From the IMG/VR virus record IMGVR_UViG_3300009079_000161, positions 1 through 20,033 of that record: DNA of 20,033 bases. One strand, written 5' to 3'. How positions within the stretch are numbered: the stretch's first letter is position 1; the number at the start of each line of letters is the position of its first letter. Shown here one piece after another: positions 2,674 through 17,697 of this stretch. The notes beneath the pieces were generated by a model. It did no database searches and was not told where the DNA came from. It was given only the letters and a program-made list of their open reading frames with translations. This DNA is from a virus. A program made the position numbers and the translations under genes.

Positions 2674-3660
2674 TTATTTATATTTTGTATTAATCTCTTC
2701 AAAACAAGATAAGTCTAACTCTTTAAAACATTCATATCTACCTCCAAAAATATTTTTTGGGATATATTTATTATCTTTATTACAATTTTTTAATCCTTCC
2801 TCTAACTCACAAATAATTCTTGCATTTTCAAGAGGTATCTCTTTTACTATTTCATAATTATAAGGTAGAGATTTATTACTCTTAAAACGTTGTTTTGTTT
2901 TTAGATATGTTCTACCTATTTTATAAAACTCTTCGTTATCATCCCAGCATCTTATAACGTATACTTTAAAAGAGTCAAAATTTTTACTTTTTTCTCCTGC
3001 CTTTTGCCAAGCACTATACCCCCATCCTGAGGGGCATTCCTTCATCTTAATTAGTCTGCTATCGTTCCCACATCTTGGACAACCTTGTCCTTTTAGATGA
3101 TTAGGGACACTTTGAGTAAAAAGTCCATGCTTTTTGCACATAATTTGTATATCGGATGCCATACCTTTATAACTCCCCTCTTTGTATTCATAGGTATCTC
3201 CATGTATCTTAAAAATCTCCTTTTTAAAAATACTAAAACTTAATACCTTCTTTTCGCTTGTTTTTACTACCCCACAATCGTAGCACCCATGCCCTTGTAA
3301 GTGTGAGTTTGCCTCTTGTTCAAAATCTCCATGTATCGGACAAGTTATTGTAACTTTTTCAGAACTTATTGTGTAAACAGTTTTTGAATAGTCATAAAAA
3401 TTATTATGTACTTTTTTTGAAATTTCTATAAATTCTCCTTTTTCTCTTCTTATTTTATCCCCTATTAATTTATTCGCACAAGTTTTACAACCTGCCCCAC
3501 TTAGATGAGTATTAGCAATTTGTTCAAACTCACCATGTATTTTGCAAGTAATAGTTACACTTAAAGAAGATTTTTTATAATCAGTGTGTTTATAACTATA
3601 CTTTTCTCCGTGTATTTTTTCAGCTTTTTCAATAAATTCTTCTGTTGTTAATTTTTTCAT
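2674..3660 (-). CDS. Zinc-ribbon repeat (DUF723-like) protein with C-terminal GIY-YIG-like (T5orf172/MUG113) domain
   Basis: The 328-residue protein has three tandem repeats of about 68 residues. Each begins F-x-(6)-H-(G/N)-x-x-Y-x-Y, carries C-x2-HG-x-F, and ends H-L-x-G-x-GC-x2-C. The metal sets are C39/H42/C58/C61, C107/H110/C126/C129 and C175/H178/C194/C197. Residues 231-312 resemble a GIY-YIG-like T5orf172 or MUG113 domain: VYVI at 233-236, FYKIGRT at 245-251, an acidic E288/E289 pair and FGGRYECF at 305-312. Known relatives are phage and mobile-element proteins thought to be free-standing homing-type nucleases, the zinc units binding DNA. It lies directly before the helicase gene, a typical spot for such an insertion, and behind its own promoter and structured leader. 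Nuclease activity is inferred, not shown by a complete classical GIY...YIG signature. Confidence 0.75.
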   Translation of the reverse strand: MKKLTTEEFIEKAEKIHGEKYSYKHTDYKKSSLSVTITCKIHGEFEQIANTHLSGAGCKTCANKLIGDKIRREKGEFIEISKKVHNNFYDYSKTVYTISSEKVTITCPIHGDFEQEANSHLQGHGCYDCGVVKTSEKKVLSFSIFKKEIFKIHGDTYEYKEGSYKGMASDIQIMCKKHGLFTQSVPNHLKGQGCPRCGNDSRLIKMKECPSGWGYSAWQKAGEKSKNFDSFKVYVIRCWDDNEEFYKIGRTYLKTKQRFKSNKSLPYNYEIVKEIPLENARIICELEEGLKNCNKDNKYIPKNIFGGRYECFKELDLSCFEEINTKYK

Positions 3661-3662
3661 TT

Positions 3663-3776
3663 TGGCTTAAAAATAATAATGCCCAAAGATACTTTATAAC
3701 GGCTCTGACCTCGTTACTCCATATCAATGGGCTATTTCTTTTAGTTTCTAAATTGTCAGAGCGAAACTTTAAGCCA
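3663..3776 (-). ncRNA. Structured RNA leader with a possible pseudoknot, ahead of the zinc-ribbon nuclease gene
   Basis: On the minus strand several complementary segments interlock. P1: TGGCTTAAA (3776-3768) with TTTAAGCCA (3671-3663), 9 bp, no mismatch. P2: GCTCTGAC (3762-3755) with GTCAGAGC (3709-3702), 8 bp, no mismatch. P3 inside P2: TTTAG-AAA-CTAAA (3752-3740). A segment of the P2 loop, AATAGCCCA (3736-3728), pairs with TGGGCATT (3685-3678) outside P2 with one bulged A, which would make a pseudoknot. CCAT-TGAT-ATGG (3730-3719) is a competing small hairpin. P1 ends two bases before the ATG at 3660, so folding would occlude translation initiation. If transcription starts 3-5 bases after the -7 box, P1 loses its outermost pairs. 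I do not recognise an Rfam family. It could be a cis-regulatory leader or a separate small RNA. Confidence 0.6.
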
Positions 3777-3808
3777 CAAATATAGTAAATAAAAATGAGG
3801 TATGCAAA
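3777..3808 (-). promoter_or_regulatory. Bacteroidetes-type promoter for the leader and nuclease-helicase unit
   Basis: The minus strand has TTTG (3808-3805), a 20-base spacer and TATATTTG (3784-3777). This matches the Bacteroidetes sigma consensus TTTG / TAnnTTTG. It lies in the gap after the winged-helix gene (stop at 3825) and points into the structured leader. Confidence 0.7.
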
Positions 3809-3824
3809 TTAGTTAAATTATTTA

Positions 3825-5696: not shown

Positions 5697-6374
5697 TTAG
5701 TAGTTAAACGCTTTTAATGTGTATTCAAATGGATTACCTTCAATGTTTTTTACAAGTTCTAACATTTGTTGAGCTAATTCTCGAACTTCTTTCTGACTAT
5801 GTTCGGAATTTCTCAACCCTTGAAAATGTACAAAAGAACGGAAGTTAAAAGAAATGTCCATTGTAATTTGAGAGTTAAAAGTTTTGAAAAACCTAGCTGA
5901 TTCTTTAGCTCTTTTACGCCCCAAAATAGGAGTTAACTCTTCTAAACACTTGTGATAAAGCTCATTTGATAGCCTTGAGTGTTTTTCTAAGATAGAATCC
6001 CACCCTAAAACAGCTCCTTGTTTATAACCTCCAATTATTTCAGCTCCGTCTTTGGTTGTGATACCCCAATCATTAGGAATATAAGTTCTATCCTCTTTTA
6101 ACTCCTTATACCGTGCCGACTCTCCGTTAATACTTACACCAATTCTGTGTTTTAAAAGATGAATATGTGTTGCTTGGTCAACTGTAACTAAAAAATGTAA
6201 TTGGCTTTTTTCAAAAGGGGTATGATGTCCTTCTGAAGCTAACATATTTAATAGTTTTGGAACTCTTTTTATCTTATCATTTGTTAAATCTCTTGATGTT
6301 GAAGTCCATGCGGATTGTGCATGTACTAAATCATTTCCATAATATCCTAATAATTCTACTTTGTTTTTACTCAT
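5697..6374 (-). CDS. thyX: Flavin-dependent thymidylate synthase ThyX
   Basis: The 225-residue protein carries the ThyX motif RHRxxSxNxxSxRY in the form KHRIGVSINGESARY (75-89), with a conservative K for the first R. The HHTPFE block (50-55) precedes it. The C-terminal FQGLRNSEHSQKEVRELA region holds the arginine (R188) and Q-K-E-V-R segment that bind dUMP and FAD in known enzymes. It makes dTMP from dUMP using FAD, NADPH and methylene-tetrahydrofolate, supplying phage DNA synthesis together with nrdAB and the MazG-like protein. I chose ATG 6374 (MSKNKVELLGYYG). The 12-residue longer frame would start with TTG and overlap the upstream membrane gene. The gene follows that membrane gene after 17 bases. 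Confidence 0.93.
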   Translation of the reverse strand: MSKNKVELLGYYGNDLVHAQSAWTSTSRDLTNDKIKRVPKLLNMLASEGHHTPFEKSQLHFLVTVDQATHIHLLKHRIGVSINGESARYKELKEDRTYIPNDWGITTKDGAEIIGGYKQGAVLGWDSILEKHSRLSNELYHKCLEELTPILGRKRAKESARFFKTFNSQITMDISFNFRSFVHFQGLRNSEHSQKEVRELAQQMLELVKNIEGNPFEYTLKAFNY

Positions 6375-6391
6375 TTTTATAGTACCAATTT

Positions 6392-6832
6392 TTAATTTTT
6401 TAACCTCCAAAATTTATCTATATAACTTTTATGGAACACTACTAGAAAATACACTAAAGCTGTTTCCATCCAAAAAAGCCCAAACCAACATGTTAGTAAA
6501 ACTACAGCTACATACCCATAAATCCATTTCCTCATAGTTTGTACTCCATAATAAATAGATAAAGCACAAGATATAAAAAATAAAGTTCCTAAGAAATTAT
6601 GCAGTAGGTGATATTGTTCTACATTAAAAGCAGTTAAAAGTATTAATATCCAACCTGTGATTTCCCAATATTTTAAATTTATAAAACAATACCCAGTTGT
6701 GATGTTTAATAATACAAACATAAAATTAAGATTTGTATTAACAAGTGTAGAGAAACTTTTTATAGAATCTCCGTACATAATTAAAGAACATATTGGTAAT
6801 AATATTGCTAGTAAAAAGGCTATATACTTCAT
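6392..6832 (-). CDS. Polytopic membrane protein, 146 aa, unknown function
   Basis: The protein is almost entirely hydrophobic, with about five membrane segments (roughly residues 3-20, 36-52, 58-72, 78-97, 105-135) and short polar turns. The start is MKYIAFLLAILLPICSLIMY and the end is a basic HKSYIDKFWRLKN, probably cytoplasmic. A conserved-looking HNFLGTLFFISC helix holds the His-Asn pair. I do not recognise the family. Being in line with a secreted protein and a membrane-bound transglycosylase, it may act at the envelope, for example in superinfection exclusion or lysis timing; that is inference. It starts one base after the upstream stop. Confidence 0.65.
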   Translation of the reverse strand: MKYIAFLLAILLPICSLIMYGDSIKSFSTLVNTNLNFMFVLLNITTGYCFINLKYWEITGWILILLTAFNVEQYHLLHNFLGTLFFISCALSIYYGVQTMRKWIYGYVAVVLLTCWFGLFWMETALVYFLVVFHKSYIDKFWRLKN

Positions 6833-8575: not shown

Positions 8576-10300
8576 CTAACCTTCGCAACTCAAGCAACTT
8601 GAGTCAAACGCTTTTTTTGTTGTTTTATTAAAATAATGTTTTACGTCTTCTTGTGTTTGACCTTCTCTAAGGTTACTTAAACTTCTTTGATAGTATAAAG
8701 TTTTAACTCCGTATAAAGAGGCTGTTAAATATAACTCACTTCTTTGTTGTGCAGGAGTGTTAGGTAACACAAATAAATTCAAACTTTGACTTTGACAAAT
8801 ATAATCCTGTCTCAAACTTGCAGCTTTTATGATACCATACTGATTAATCTCATAAGCTGTTAAAAATACTTCTTTCTCTTCTTTTGATAAAAAATCTAAA
8901 TGTTGAACTGAACCAAAATTAATAACTATAGAATCCCAAACATCTGCTGTATCTTGCTCTTTATCCCTTAATAACTTCTCTAAAGTTGGGTTTTTCTTTA
9001 AAAAAGAACCTTTAGCTACTTTTCTTTGAAAAATGTTGGATACCCAAGGTTCTATTCCTGGGGAAACGTCTCCACTAATTAAAGCATTAGTTGTTGTAGG
9101 AGCAATAGCTAAAAGAGTTGTGTGTCTTTTGTGAATTTTAAAGTTTTTATTAACCTCGCAAGCTCCAAACATATCTGCTAATTCTGTAGAAGCTTCTTCA
9201 GCCTGTCTTTTTATTCTACTGTAAATACTTCTTCTATAATTATCTGCCATTAAAGAGACAAACGAAATTTTTCGTTCCTGTAAAAAAGAATGCTCCCCAA
9301 GTGTTCCTAAACCTAAAGCCCTATGTCTAATAGCAAACCTAACAGCATCTTCCATACCCTCTAATTTAGAAGCTTTTCTAATAAATTCAGACATAACTGC
9401 TTCTAAAATATAAATAGCTACCTTAACAGCATCTGTATTTTTCCACTCATCATAAGAAGCTAAATTCATAGAAGCTAAACAGCAAACAAATGATTCTGTT
9501 TCATTTGAAGGTAAACAAATTTCTGAGCATAAGTTGCTAGATTTAAGTATGTTAACTCCATTATAAGGTAAAGGTGTACTTGGGTGATTATTAACATTAT
9601 CCTTAAACATAATATAAGGGATACCTATATTATTACGCATTTCACAAATTTTAGCCCAAATAGTTAATGCTTTTACATCCCCTCTTATGATGTTCTCTAC
9701 ATCTTTTTTATCTACTACTACACCTGTTGTTATAGTTTGAATAGGATTCCCAATATCTCTAATTTCTAAGAAATCTAAAATGTCAGGGTGAGAAAAATCT
9801 AAGTACCCTGCTAACATACCTCTTCTAACACCCCCTTGACTAACTTCTTCAATAGTGGTATTAAGCATTTTTATAGGGGACATTACACCTTTAGACTTAG
9901 CTGTTGTGTTACTAATAGAAGCCCCTCTACCTCTAACATCCCCAAGATAAGCAGAAGTGCCTCCTCCATTTTGAGACATTATTGCTACTTCTAAATCTTT
10001 CTTCTTGAATGATAAAATAGAATCGGAAACGTGAGAATTAAAACAACTAATTGGTAAACCTCTTTGTCTTCCATAGTTTGACCAAATAGGTGAAGAAAGT
10101 CCAATATAACCTTCCCAAACATATTCAAAAACTTTATCTGCTAAACCATCCACACCAATTTCTAATTCAACTTTTCTTGCTATATTTTTAATAGCTTGTT
10201 TTGGAGTCTCTTCTCCTTGTAAATAATCAGCTTTCAATGTAACTAAAGCAGATTCACTCATATAATTTGGGTAATCTACACCCTTAATCCATCCTACCAT
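8576..10300 (-). CDS. nrdA: Class I ribonucleotide reductase large (alpha) subunit
   Basis: The 574-residue protein contains the class I active site. LSSPIWSNYG...LPISCFN holds C86, equivalent to E. coli C225. NLCSEI (256-261) holds the radical C258 and E260. C273 or C274 (FVCCLAS) supplies the second redox cysteine. The radical-transfer tyrosine pair is in KTLYYQRS (Y536, Y537), and a C-terminal redox pair C569-L-S-C572 (SCLSCEG end) is present. It reduces ribonucleotides to deoxyribonucleotides with the NrdB radical subunit. At 574 residues it is much shorter than the E. coli protein (about 760), and the N-terminal ATP-cone region is missing, so activity-site regulation by dATP is probably lost, as in several phage enzymes. 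The ATG overlaps the end of nrdB by 17 bases; the thioredoxin follows. Confidence 0.95.
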   Translation of the reverse strand: MVGWIKGVDYPNYMSESALVTLKADYLQGEETPKQAIKNIARKVELEIGVDGLADKVFEYVWEGYIGLSSPIWSNYGRQRGLPISCFNSHVSDSILSFKKKDLEVAIMSQNGGGTSAYLGDVRGRGASISNTTAKSKGVMSPIKMLNTTIEEVSQGGVRRGMLAGYLDFSHPDILDFLEIRDIGNPIQTITTGVVVDKKDVENIIRGDVKALTIWAKICEMRNNIGIPYIMFKDNVNNHPSTPLPYNGVNILKSSNLCSEICLPSNETESFVCCLASMNLASYDEWKNTDAVKVAIYILEAVMSEFIRKASKLEGMEDAVRFAIRHRALGLGTLGEHSFLQERKISFVSLMADNYRRSIYSRIKRQAEEASTELADMFGACEVNKNFKIHKRHTTLLAIAPTTTNALISGDVSPGIEPWVSNIFQRKVAKGSFLKKNPTLEKLLRDKEQDTADVWDSIVINFGSVQHLDFLSKEEKEVFLTAYEINQYGIIKAASLRQDYICQSQSLNLFVLPNTPAQQRSELYLTASLYGVKTLYYQRSLSNLREGQTQEDVKHYFNKTTKKAFDSSCLSCEG

Positions 10301-11345
10301 CTATAATATAATTTTTATCTAACTTATTTAAAAAATTCTCTGAAACTTTAACAGTACTTTCATCAAATACTACCATATTTTTAGTATAGTCTGTTGGTCT
10401 GCTTCCTGCTAAAAAGTCTGTAAACTGTGTGGCATTGCTTTCTAAATCAAACCATTTTGTGTCTTCTAATACTTTTTCATCAATATCAAAAATAGCTTTT
10501 AAACCTAATCTTTTTAGCGAATCATTAGCTCTATTTTTCATGTAGTTTATAACTTGGTCAGATGTTAAATTTGGTAAATTATTATCATCAAAAATATCTT
10601 TAATAAGTTTTGTCTCGATATCCATACCTGTTGTAAAAGCTACATAAATAGAAGATTTAAACTCATTTGTCCAAATCCAATTACATTCGTCTTTTATCTT
10701 ATTAAATATATAAATACCACCATCTCCGTGTAAAGATTCTTCTCGTTTTGACCAATCAATAACGTTTCCTACAGTTTTCATAAAATTTCTTCCATTTGAT
10801 GAGAAAGATTTTAAAATCATAAACTGTCCAAATAATGCTACTCTTTCAGTAAATGCAGAAAAAACAGCTAACCCAAAAGCAAATCGTTTTATATGTTCAG
10901 GATTTGTTTTATCAAAGTCAAAATTTAAACTTGAATTTATTAAATTTTCAAATTTATCTGATAAGATAGGGTCTTTAGAATAAGGTTCAAACTCTTTTAA
11001 ATTTAATACCTCATTAATTCTAAAATATGCCGAAGCGTGTCTTGACTCATTTTCTGCAAAGGCATAACCCATCTCACAAAACTCAGGTCTTGGTAAAAAT
11101 CTGCCTATTTTACTCCATAAATCATCTGCTACATGCACTTCTACCTCAGAAAAGGTTCTTAATATTCTTGATATAATTTGACGGTCTACTTCTGTCAAAT
11201 CTGTTTTGTAATTTTGAACATCTTTATCAAACTCCAACTCTCTGTGAACCCAATACCCATCTTGTACAGGTTCTGTAAAATTCTTCTCTACTTCTGGAAA
11301 ATCATACGGTTTGTACACCTCCCTACCATCAAAAATACTACTCAT
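10284..11345 (-). CDS. nrdB: Class I ribonucleotide reductase small (beta) subunit
   Basis: The 353-residue ferritin-like protein has the expected metal ligands. The FSEVEVHVADDLW helix probably supplies the first carboxylate as E69. E100-x2-H103 lies in ENESRHASAY, with Y107 exactly four residues after the histidine, as in the radical tyrosine of class Ia/Ib enzymes. E167 (AFTERVALF) and E203-x2-H206 (REESLH) complete the set. It generates the radical used by NrdA, and the tyrosine suggests a Y-radical type rather than the Mn/Fe class Ic. It is the first gene of nrdB-nrdA-thioredoxin. The nearest convincing promoter is at 11582-11612, with a structured leader and terminator between them, so expression may be controlled by attenuation. 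Confidence 0.94.
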   Translation of the reverse strand: MSSIFDGREVYKPYDFPEVEKNFTEPVQDGYWVHRELEFDKDVQNYKTDLTEVDRQIISRILRTFSEVEVHVADDLWSKIGRFLPRPEFCEMGYAFAENESRHASAYFRINEVLNLKEFEPYSKDPILSDKFENLINSSLNFDFDKTNPEHIKRFAFGLAVFSAFTERVALFGQFMILKSFSSNGRNFMKTVGNVIDWSKREESLHGDGGIYIFNKIKDECNWIWTNEFKSSIYVAFTTGMDIETKLIKDIFDDNNLPNLTSDQVINYMKNRANDSLKRLGLKAIFDIDEKVLEDTKWFDLESNATQFTDFLAGSRPTDYTKNMVVFDESTVKVSENFLNKLDKNYIIDGRMD

Positions 11346-14906: not shown

Positions 14907-16934
14907 TTAATGTACACTTGCATAGGAAGAACCTATTTTATAATCTATTCCAATTGGAATTTTCAATTTTAATTGCTTATTAACTATTTCCATAGCTTTT
15001 TTTAGTTTTTTAATTATTACTTCTTTATCCTCTTCTTTGCAACAAGTTACAATTTCATCGTGAAAACCTGCATATAAAGTAACACCCATTTTCATTAAAT
15101 TATGTTGCCACAGTGTAAAAATATAATCTCCTGTACCTTGATTTATCGTTGAAAAAATATCTTTCTCTGAGCGTAAACTATAATAATAATTATTTAGTGG
15201 ATTTTTAACCCATAACTGCCCATTTTTAGTAGTCTTAAGTTCACAAGAACTTGTAAATATTTTTACACAATTATTTTTTATCCAATAAGCTTCAATAAGT
15301 TTCGCAGCCTCTTTTACTGTAATACCTAAATCTTCTGCTAATTTATTTTTACCAATTCCATACATTGAGCTATAGTTAGTAGTCTTACCTGAATGTCTTT
15401 TTTTATCTAATTTGTCATGAAATTCACTCCTTTCTTCATCTGTTACATATGAATCTAAAATAATTTGAAAATCTTCAGGAACATCACCTATTTCTTCTAA
15501 AGTAATATTAGGATTTTTTCTTGACTCCTTCCACCACTTATAAAAGAAAACTTCAGCAGAAGACATCATCCCTGCAATTTCACAAATCTCTAAATGTGGG
15601 TCATAAAAAGGATGTGATTGAGCTTCTACAAATTCTCTGTCAATGTCATAGACAAAATTATTCCTTGTCATACTTTCTAATGCACTCACATCTGCCCCTA
15701 TCATCACCATTCCTTTAGGAGGTTTTAATAAACTTCTTACATACTCCCCATAAGGAGCAGAGGGTTTAATTAAGTTTACTAAAGTCCTATGTCTTATACG
15801 AAGAGTGTTTGTAAAACCTCCTATATCAGCAACTATTTTATCTTCCCTTATCTTATCCCTTAAAAAACCTGTAAAGTATCCTCTACGGTGTTGTAGTAAG
15901 CTTAAATCAGTTAGTTCTTTTATCTCAGGTACTTCTTCTGATAATTTTATAATAGATTTACATAAATCTTTATTTTTATCTTTTAATTGAGGGACTTTTT
16001 TAACTTCTCCTTTTGTTGAAACACTATCATTAAAAATAATAGGTTTCCAAGCCAAAGAGAATAACCAATCTTTTACTTGAGATACGCTTTGAGGATTAGG
16101 GTCTTCATATTTTAAAACTTCTTCTATAACACCTTCATAATCTTCGGGTAAATTACATCCTTTTATTAAAGTCATCCACTTTTCACCTGCTACAGAAAGA
16201 GATAAATCCTTTTTAAACATGTTTTTAGGCTTTGTTCTTTTTACTTTTATAGGTATTTTAGGCATAACAGAAATAAGTTTGTCAACCCTTTCTTTTATCA
16301 TCTCATCAAAAAGTTCTAAATTTTTATTACATTGCTCTAAATCCAAAGTTAGGGGATTGTCTTGGTGCATCTTGTAGACTTTACCTTTTGTCATAAGAAA
16401 TTTTAACAAAGATTTAATTCTCTCATCATCATTTTCATATAACTCTCTTAACATGTTTAAATGTTTGAACCATGTATTTGTATTTATTTTACAATCTTCT
16501 TTTACACGATTTTCATATTCTTCATAAGACAATCCTTGCCAATCACTTATTTCAGGTTTAGGAACGCCAAACTCAGTTCCGAAATCTGACAATCCATATT
16601 TACCACCTTCTTTTATTCTATTAGTTTCTATATACCATGCAACTAATAAAGAGTCTATAATTGTAGCTTTTATATTTATATCTTTAAATATTTTCTCTAA
16701 AGATGGTATATCAAACATAAAAAAATTATGTCCAACAATTGTATTATTTGGGTTTTCAAAAACTTTTTTTACATCTTCTTCCCTATTAGTTGTTTTTATT
16801 TGCCATTTTTGATTTGAATCTAAATAAGCAATTCCTAAAACATGTAGGTCAGATTTTTCCCCTACTATATCTTCAAGAAAACCTTTACTTTCTATATCGC
16901 CAATTAGGACATTATTTAAATCAAAATTTTTCAT
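14907..16934 (-). CDS. Family A (T7-like) DNA polymerase with 3'-5' exonuclease domain
   Basis: The 675-residue protein has an N-terminal proofreading domain: ExoI IGDIES with D13/E15, ExoII VGHNFFMFDIPSL with D75, and ExoIII around RVKED with D147. The polymerase domain follows. Motif A is GADVSALES (D415, E420). Motif B/O-helix is R513-x3-K517-x3-Y521-x3-Y525 in RHSGKTTNYSSMYG. Motif C is FHDE (H625, D626, E627). Spacing matches E. coli Pol I R754/K758/F762/Y766, with Tyr at the F762 position as in T7 polymerase. It is the replicative polymerase of the phage. In ExoIII the residue four before D147 is R143 rather than Tyr, so the usual DEDDy tyrosine is not seen. A homing endonuclease gene lies ten bases upstream, a common place for such insertions. 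Confidence 0.95.
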   Translation of the reverse strand: MKNFDLNNVLIGDIESKGFLEDIVGEKSDLHVLGIAYLDSNQKWQIKTTNREEDVKKVFENPNNTIVGHNFFMFDIPSLEKIFKDINIKATIIDSLLVAWYIETNRIKEGGKYGLSDFGTEFGVPKPEISDWQGLSYEEYENRVKEDCKINTNTWFKHLNMLRELYENDDERIKSLLKFLMTKGKVYKMHQDNPLTLDLEQCNKNLELFDEMIKERVDKLISVMPKIPIKVKRTKPKNMFKKDLSLSVAGEKWMTLIKGCNLPEDYEGVIEEVLKYEDPNPQSVSQVKDWLFSLAWKPIIFNDSVSTKGEVKKVPQLKDKNKDLCKSIIKLSEEVPEIKELTDLSLLQHRRGYFTGFLRDKIREDKIVADIGGFTNTLRIRHRTLVNLIKPSAPYGEYVRSLLKPPKGMVMIGADVSALESMTRNNFVYDIDREFVEAQSHPFYDPHLEICEIAGMMSSAEVFFYKWWKESRKNPNITLEEIGDVPEDFQIILDSYVTDEERSEFHDKLDKKRHSGKTTNYSSMYGIGKNKLAEDLGITVKEAAKLIEAYWIKNNCVKIFTSSCELKTTKNGQLWVKNPLNNYYYSLRSEKDIFSTINQGTGDYIFTLWQHNLMKMGVTLYAGFHDEIVTCCKEEDKEVIIKKLKKAMEIVNKQLKLKIPIGIDYKIGSSYASVH

Positions 16935-16944
16935 ATTCTATCTA

Positions 16945-17697
16945 TTAAACGTACTCTAAACTTGTGTTATTTGGATTTTGCCCTTTCAGCATAGCACATA
17001 ATGTAGTCACTTTTATATTATATGTATTAGCAGCAGACTTTAGGGTGTAATAAAATATCCCTGTCTCTTTACAGAGAATTAACTTAGCCCTTGGATGATT
17101 TTCATCTTTATATTTTCCTATATGTGATAGACTTAAGTTCTTCTTATGTTCCTCAGAAAAAGTTACTCCTTTTTTTGCTTTACTAACACTAACTGATATC
17201 TTAGCTCTATGCTCTTCAGAATGTTGCTTACCATAGAAGTGGTTCTTTTCTCCTGACATCCTATCAGATATGGCTTTTCTTTCTTCTTGTGACAACACCC
17301 TTGTTGATAAATACTCTAAAAATATCTTAGTAGATTTTTCAGAAGGTTTTATGCCTATATGTGAGGAGGATAAGTTATCCCTTTTACTTTCGGAAATTTC
17401 CGATTTTAAACCTCCACAAGAAGTTAATTGACAATTTAAGCCCCCTTTGCCTAAAACTTTGTAAAAATCTTGCCAATACCTTTCCTTACAATTTAAATCT
17501 TCTTTTTTACATTCCTCTATTATCTCAAAGATGTGCTTTTCCCAACCATGCTTTACTATAGAGTTGTATAATCTAATTTGCAATTTACAATGTAGATTTT
17601 TGTAGTCTCTAAATCGCTTTCTAATGTTAACCCCTTGCCCTATGTAGATTCTTCCTGTTGGGCTTATAATCTTATAAATTCCACAAATCTTTTCCAT
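16945..17697 (-). CDS. GIY-YIG homing endonuclease with NUMOD DNA-binding motifs
   Basis: The 250-residue protein starts MEKICGIYKIISPTGRIYIG with the paired G-I-Y (6-8) and Y-I-G (18-20) motifs. A basic N-I-R-K-R-F-R segment with the conserved arginine follows, and the catalytic glutamate E72 is in KERYWQDFY. Residues about 115-200 hold NUMOD3-type repeats (SGEKNHFYGKQHSEEHR, and F-S-E-E-H-K). The C-terminus has a NUMOD1-like helix-turn-helix (TLKSAANTYNIKVTTLCAML). It resembles free-standing Seg-type endonucleases that cut near their own gene in relatives lacking it. Its position directly before the polymerase gene suggests that gene is the target. A possible own promoter is at 17715-17746. 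Confidence 0.92.
   Translation of the reverse strand: MEKICGIYKIISPTGRIYIGQGVNIRKRFRDYKNLHCKLQIRLYNSIVKHGWEKHIFEIIEECKKEDLNCKERYWQDFYKVLGKGGLNCQLTSCGGLKSEISESKRDNLSSSHIGIKPSEKSTKIFLEYLSTRVLSQEERKAISDRMSGEKNHFYGKQHSEEHRAKISVSVSKAKKGVTFSEEHKKNLSLSHIGKYKDENHPRAKLILCKETGIFYYTLKSAANTYNIKVTTLCAMLKGQNPNNTSLEYV

Follow-up and report, generated by a model that had tools for sequence, protein, structure and literature searches.

A leader RNA in which two hairpins pair through their loops precedes the nuclease gene of the window, the whole 20,033-nucleotide stretch of viral DNA that was analysed, and almost certainly represents a real, conserved RNA class. The preliminary description had suggested a regulatory RNA leader at this place, and that suggestion is strongly supported by covariation in every helix, by its constant placement between the promoter and the start codon and by occurrence in many phages. 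We tentatively read the element, from its sequence, as a cis-acting leader in which hairpin 2 and the following U-tract would form an attenuator-like terminator modulated by the loop-loop (kissing) pair; we put the probability of this reading at roughly 0.45.

Fold of the leader RNA in the window

On the minus strand, positions 3768-3681 form two hairpins joined by an 8-bp pairing of their loops (GCUCUGAC/GUCAGAGC); a U-rich tract comes next, and then the ATG at 3660. The features of the locus, all on the minus strand, are as follows.

3805-3808, minus: -33 promoter element TTTG, read from the sequence
3777-3784, minus: -7 promoter element TATATTTG (TAnnTTTG), with a 20-nt spacer from TTTG
3743-3768, minus: hairpin 1, AGUUUC (3768-3763) with GAAACU (3748-3743), loop GCUCUGAC-AAUUUA; in the MFE structure
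3755-3762, minus: kissing strand K, GCUCUGAC, in the hairpin 1 loop; exact complement of 3709-3702
3733-3742, minus: A-rich linker from hairpin 1 to hairpin 2
3681-3732, minus: hairpin 2, three stacked stems and an apical loop of AG plus K'; in the MFE structure
3702-3709, minus: kissing strand K', GUCAGAGC, in the hairpin 2 loop; pairs over 8 bp with 3762-3755
3669-3680, minus: U-rich tract AUUAUUAUUUUU, terminator-like, abutting hairpin 2; most members have AUUUUUAUUUU
2674-3660, minus: nuclease-like gene, DUF723 zinc-ribbon repeats and a MUG113 (GIY-YIG-like) end
2674-3824, minus: unit of promoter, leader and nuclease, about 1.15 kb, missing from two related loci (L403 and L407)
1537-2673, minus: DnaB-like helicase gene (Pfam DnaB_C, 3.8e-13), downstream of the unit

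The MFE of the 123-nt leader was -33.8 kcal/mol (z -3.85), and none of 200 dinucleotide shuffles was as stable. The loop-loop architecture score was matched by 1 of 3000 shuffles, and the K:K' duplex energy was -12.6 kcal/mol. The stems of hairpin 2 are GCCCA/UGGGC (outer), GAUAU/GUAUC (middle) and GUAACG/CGUUAU (inner), and the U-tract is interrupted by As.

All of the pairings listed in the preliminary description were found in the sequence where it had placed them; the signal was real and the topology was wrong. The 8-bp stem of GCUCUGAC (3762-3755) with GUCAGAGC (3709-3702), described as stem P2, exists but is the kissing helix between the two hairpins. The pairing of GCCCA (3732-3728) with UGGGC (3685-3681) is likewise present; it had been called a pseudoknot and is instead the base of hairpin 2. 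A 5-bp hairpin, UUUAG/CUAAA, can form but competes with the conserved hairpin 1. The 9-bp helix P1, UGGCUUAAA (3776-3768) with UUUAAGCCA (3671-3663), does end two bases from the ATG at 3660, but it is not conserved: P1-like helices across the class were no longer than those in shuffled controls, and P1 lies outside the class. The idea that P1 occludes the ATG is unsupported, given this lack of conservation and a 5' arm that begins at the -7 box. The topology given here rests on the MFE fold and on homologues.

The consensus promoter noted directly upstream is real in form (TTTG, 20 nt, TATATTTG), and the two elements fit the Bacteroidota (Bacteroidetes) promoter consensus (PMC7366714). In the parsed members of the class, hairpin 1 is preceded by a TAnnTTT[G/A] box at a distance of 0-14 nt, mostly 2-9 nt. 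Transcription is predicted to begin at hairpin 1 or a few nucleotides before it.

Occurrence and covariation of the leader class

Another IMG/VR contig (L001) has the same nuclease-helicase order as the window and also has the leader; the kissing pair (GCUUCGAC/GUCGAAGC) and each of the three hairpin 2 stems differ there by compensatory changes. A blastn search with the L001 leader as query led to the Flavobacterium phages snusmum and hattifnatt (Moomin phages), in which hairpin 1 shows a compensatory change to AGUUAC/GUAACU. The snusmum locus (L076) also has compensatory changes in the outer, middle and inner stems of hairpin 2. In phage 11b, the architecture is identical and the letters are unrelated, with CGGGCAGG/CCUGCCCG as the kissing pair. 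Many further families were found by a descriptor search for two hairpins with complementary loops. Two or three copies can occur in one genome, each with a different kissing sequence and each heading a gene or small operon. The cultured hosts are Flavobacterium, and we infer from the promoter type that the metagenomic contigs are Bacteroidota phages.

Two checks suggested in the preliminary description were run. Covariation among homologous leaders was confirmed, with compensatory changes in the hairpins and in the kissing helix. The Rfam search matched no known family: Rfam 15 gave no match in the window or in nine other member loci, and permissive scans returned weak, sub-threshold signals only. 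A group I intron remnant was rejected, the only match being at chance level and on the opposite strand. Twister-, HDV- and pistol-type ribozymes were also rejected; their topologies differ from this one, and Rfam gave no match.

We searched 2.9 million viral contigs with the pattern "TATATTTG-N76-104-GGCATTTTTATTTT", which specifies the -7 box, the spacing and the U-tract but not the fold, and obtained 75 matching stretches. Kissing hairpins, scored as a hairpin 1 whose loop complements a downstream segment, were present in 47 of 51 distinct matched sequences among the viral loci analysed (close variants being counted separately) and reached at least 7 bp in 41, compared with 22 of 1020 shuffles of the matched sequences (2.2%) at 7 bp or more. 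The four distinct matches in host genomes had no significant kissing pair: one had 7 bp (p 0.03) and three had nothing. A similar pattern found three matches in 397 Flavobacteriaceae and 395 Bacteroidota genomes, none of them with the fold. A scan that ignored the promoter gave 54 matches in the viral loci selected by the pattern; a -7 box stood at hairpin 1 in 48 of these. The control scans gave four matches in host loci (0.90 Mb), three in unrelated viral loci (0.56 Mb) and three in reversed sequence, and the box was present in none of these.

Because the sequence drifts so freely, ordinary sequence searches miss most members. A fixed-sequence viral search with TGGAGTAANGAGGTC yielded 68 matches, which were real only in the L001/L047 contig. 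The window leader had no match in plasmids, no match with a promoter was found in the Flavobacterium psychrophilum phages 6H and FPSV-F7, and inspection by eye revealed no such leader at two relatives of the nuclease (L002 and L003). Detection succeeded when the promoter, the paired loops and the U-tract were sought jointly.

We parsed 61 distinct member sequences, which contain 33 distinct K/K' loop pairs, 42-43 hairpin 1 arms, 38 inner arms and 40 outer arms. MAFFT alignments (A1 and the N-padded A2) slip by one base in the loops; covariation was therefore counted on the parsed helices in Python. At each K position, three or four types of Watson-Crick pair occur. Arms pair in 100% of cases within a member, compared with 41-46% when arms are swapped between members; the 100% is built in, because helices were chosen by complementarity, and the fair control is the shuffle rate given above (22/1020 with at least 7 bp). 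The kissing and stem sequences drift freely, and pairing and spacing are kept.

Across the class, hairpin 1 has 4-9 bp and a loop consisting of K (6-9 nt) and 0-7 nt on its 3' side. The A-rich linker is 7-26 nt long (54% A). Hairpin 2 has an outer stem of 4-13 bp and carries K' in its apical loop, often after A, AA or AG, and the loop-loop pairing spans 6-9 bp. One subgroup has loops of exactly 7 nt in both hairpins, fully paired. In most members, the start codon lies 10-23 nt beyond the point where the U-tract starts; in a few it lies at 33-50 nt. Several scans had the U-tract in their search pattern, so selection by the search accounts for part of its conservation; members found without the exact pattern still carry tails such as GGGATTTTTTAATTT.

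Several loci depart from the common layout. In L330 (5062-5164) and L354 (6217-6323, minus strand; the same element as that of L186), the hairpin types stand in swapped order with the loop-loop pairing kept, which, judged by sequence, makes them natural permutations of the motif. L338 (10803-10916) and L353 (1384-1490, minus strand) hold larger members, in which a short helix is added 5' of the kissing strand and the -7 box is 13-14 nt from hairpin 1; these possibly form a subclass. A snusmum stretch (L325 14241-14279, minus-strand numbering) has TTGTAGC/GCTACAA-type repeats and T-runs, no promoter box and a score barely above the cut-off.

Genes behind the leader

The preliminary description had presented the element as the leader of a zinc-ribbon nuclease. 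This holds in the window, but not for the class. The downstream genes are replication genes or endonucleases, so the leader is not nuclease-specific. Those scanned include genes for helicases (ResIII/Helicase_C among them), for DUF6291, Lin1244-type and DnaD-like replication proteins, for primases with DUF3987 or BT4734/PriCT, for an AAA_24 ATPase and a DNA methylase, and for NUMOD4/HNH endonucleases. HNH, NUMOD4 or GIY-YIG-type endonucleases make up about one-third, some of the HNH-like and GIY-YIG-like assignments being readings of N-terminal sequence only. The leader stands before SF2 helicases, primases, replication-initiation proteins and a DNA methyltransferase with no intervening nuclease, and the helicase gene lies directly behind the RNA in snusmum and hattifnatt, which rules out a nuclease-specific leader.

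Snusmum has three copies: before the helicase gene gp033, before the endonuclease gene gp040, and before gp043, which is followed by helicase gp044 and virulence-associated protein E gp045. The annotated helicase start falls within leader hairpin 2 in both snusmum (L076 4096; record position 9791) and hattifnatt (L077 4070). The ATG at L076 4132, just 3' of the U-tract, is the more likely helicase start.

In the window, the nuclease gene matches the Pfam families DUF723 (1.5e-6), DUF4379 (1.5e-4) and MUG113 (0.0029, below its cut-off), and its relatives in phages carry endonuclease annotation; it looks like a free-standing, putative homing endonuclease gene. The L001 contig shares the promoter-leader-nuclease unit. 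The helicases of L403 and L407 share 77% and 80% identity, respectively, with that of the window, and both leader and nuclease are missing at the helicase locus. Because the helicase there lies only a few nucleotides behind a homologue of the 198-aa gene, the window carries a unit that those relatives lack, although loss in L403 and L407 may explain this instead of gain in the window.

Elsewhere in the window, a second endonuclease-like gene (16945-17697; GIY-YIG and NUMOD3) adjoins a DNA polymerase A gene (14907-16934), and the scan found no kissing leader at it. A segment of about 0.8-0.9 kb (528-1411), which includes an RNA ligase gene, matches Flavobacterium psychrophilum phages 2A, 6H and others at about 94% identity, and no near match exists for the remainder of the window; the segment probably reflects a recent exchange between phages. 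The ORF at 5697-6410, which we take to resemble a flavin-dependent thymidylate synthase (RHR motif), shares its region with ribonucleotide reductase genes (8576-11345).

Candidate mechanisms and comparison with known systems

The RNA folds into two hairpins with loops paired over 6-9 bp, and hairpin 2 runs straight into the U-tract, after which a replication or endonuclease gene starts. Under the attenuation reading, hairpin 2 and the U-tract would act as an attenuator-like intrinsic terminator, and loop-loop contact with hairpin 1 would set polymerase read-through into the downstream genes. The kissing pair would perhaps be bound by RNA polymerase, a phage factor or a host factor. Homing-type endonuclease genes may have acquired the same promoter-leader unit; we propose that they would therefore be expressed on the schedule of the replication genes.

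The members have a stable hairpin followed directly by a U-tract, 5' of the coding region, with a median hairpin 2 energy of -15.4 kcal/mol and a median T-tail score of 3.9. The 25 nt 5' of the ATG comprise 51% T and 28% A, compared with 33% T and 47% A at other genes of one such phage. We favour a terminator role over ordinary initiation because this U-rich stretch is unlike other starts in that phage. Against attenuation, the window U-tract is broken by As, and the terminator-like end lies 0-14 nt before the start codon, where it would be equally suited to translational control. We found no mutually exclusive antiterminator helix; the hairpins and the kissing helix can coexist.

Translational control is the main rival and a less probable, if serious, one. 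Here the pseudoknotted RNA and the U-rich stretch would bind a phage protein or block the ribosome until needed, so that replication and endonuclease genes would be translated at the right time. The 10-23 nt between U-tract start and start codon in most members, and the replication proteins and endonucleases encoded downstream, suit such a switch. T4 offers precedents: gp32 binds a pseudoknot and an A+U-rich unstructured region, and several T4 endonuclease genes have inhibitory RNA structure (PMC3014915). However, the conserved fold ends before the start codon and leaves it uncovered, and P1, the sole helix that reaches the ATG region, is unconserved. Simple autoregulation by the downstream product is unlikely, because the leader precedes many unrelated genes.

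We consider it improbable that the element works like put RNA, with the nascent transcript binding RNA polymerase and making it resistant to pausing and termination along the operon. Two hairpins at the transcript start heading early or replication genes recall HK022 putL (PMC9378689), and a constant architecture with drifting sequence would also be in keeping with such action. The putRNAs are similar in sequence, and the account consulted mentions neither U-tract nor kissing; the sequence here is nearly free. Moreover, copies stand before single short endonuclease genes, for which long-range antitermination would be of little use.

Slightly more improbable still is an expression booster, a stable 5' structure that would slow mRNA decay or aid translation in non-Shine-Dalgarno hosts and that endonuclease genes would have taken up as an expression cassette. 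Hairpin 1 does start at the predicted 5' end, the promoter-leader-gene unit is missing from related loci, and Flavobacterium ribosomes do not recognise Shine-Dalgarno sequences (PMC9976891). A booster alone, however, explains neither the loop-loop pairing nor a U-tract abutting the stem, and the region before the ATG is U-rich, compared with A-rich at other genes of such a phage. Attenuation would be indistinguishable by its footprint from put-like action or from simple 5'-end protection.

A separate trans-acting small RNA that ends at the U-tract, with the downstream gene reached by leaky read-through, is very unlikely. Its own promoter and terminator-like end would yield one distinct RNA about 100 nt long, but the distance to the ATG is short and fixed in most members, and each copy has loop sequences of its own that pair within the same RNA. 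Chance inverted repeats in an AT-rich genome, or a DNA-level signal such as a replication origin near the frequent downstream replication genes, can practically be dismissed given the covariation, the fixed promoter adjacency, the several copies per genome and the shuffle and control scans.

Returning to attenuation, if read-through is indeed set by loop-loop pairing, the leader would be a new regulatory design and a compact expression-control part for Bacteroidota. In its broadest form, as an undescribed, sequence-independent kissing-hairpin leader that acts on polymerase, heads replication operons across Bacteroidota phages and was captured by homing endonuclease genes as a portable expression unit, the proposal is possible but doubtful. 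Gene timing in Bacteroidota phages is little known, and the leader offers a concrete, testable RNA element that is present in the cultured Flavobacterium phages snusmum, hattifnatt and 11b, heading replication and endonuclease genes. It also suggests that selfish endonuclease genes travel with their own promoter and regulatory RNA.

Among known systems, attenuators with an intrinsic terminator share the promoter-proximal leader, the terminator-like hairpin, the U-tract and the gene that follows; here, however, we found no alternative antiterminator helix, leader peptide or known ligand site, and an upstream element pairs with the terminator loop. RNAI and RNAII of ColE1 form 7-nt kissing loops between two RNAs. 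The leader subgroup with 7-nt, fully paired loops resembles them, but its pairing is within one RNA.

HK022 put RNA (PMC9378689) shares the two stem-loops, and putL lies immediately downstream of an early phage promoter. In our class, too, two stem-loops lie immediately downstream of a promoter, whose early nature is judged from the genes. The put sequences resemble each other and act alone on Escherichia coli RNA polymerase, whereas the present leaders lack sequence conservation even within the class, kiss through their loops over 6-9 bp, have a U-tract and also precede single endonuclease genes.

The T4 gene 32 operator likewise combines a pseudoknotted leader with an unstructured, A/U-rich stretch 5' of a replication gene's start codon, and our U-rich tract may, by analogy, be a protein-binding stretch of that kind (PMC3014915). 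In T4, the pseudoknot lies 67 nt 5' of the start codon and binds the product of the same gene, whereas here a kissing-hairpin fold close to the start codon is common to many unrelated genes, and no ssDNA-binding family was present among the downstream genes scanned. The start-site RNAs of T4-type homing endonucleases (I-TevI, mobE and segB) also place structured RNA before phage endonuclease genes. Those structures inhibit translation at the initiation region, whereas the fold described here stops short of the start codon and serves replication genes as well; no conserved helix covers the translation start in our class, P1 being no better than shuffled sequence. Within the open-access literature, we found no description of such a leader. 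As a structured cis-regulatory phage leader, the element is of a kind already known, and its design appears to be new.
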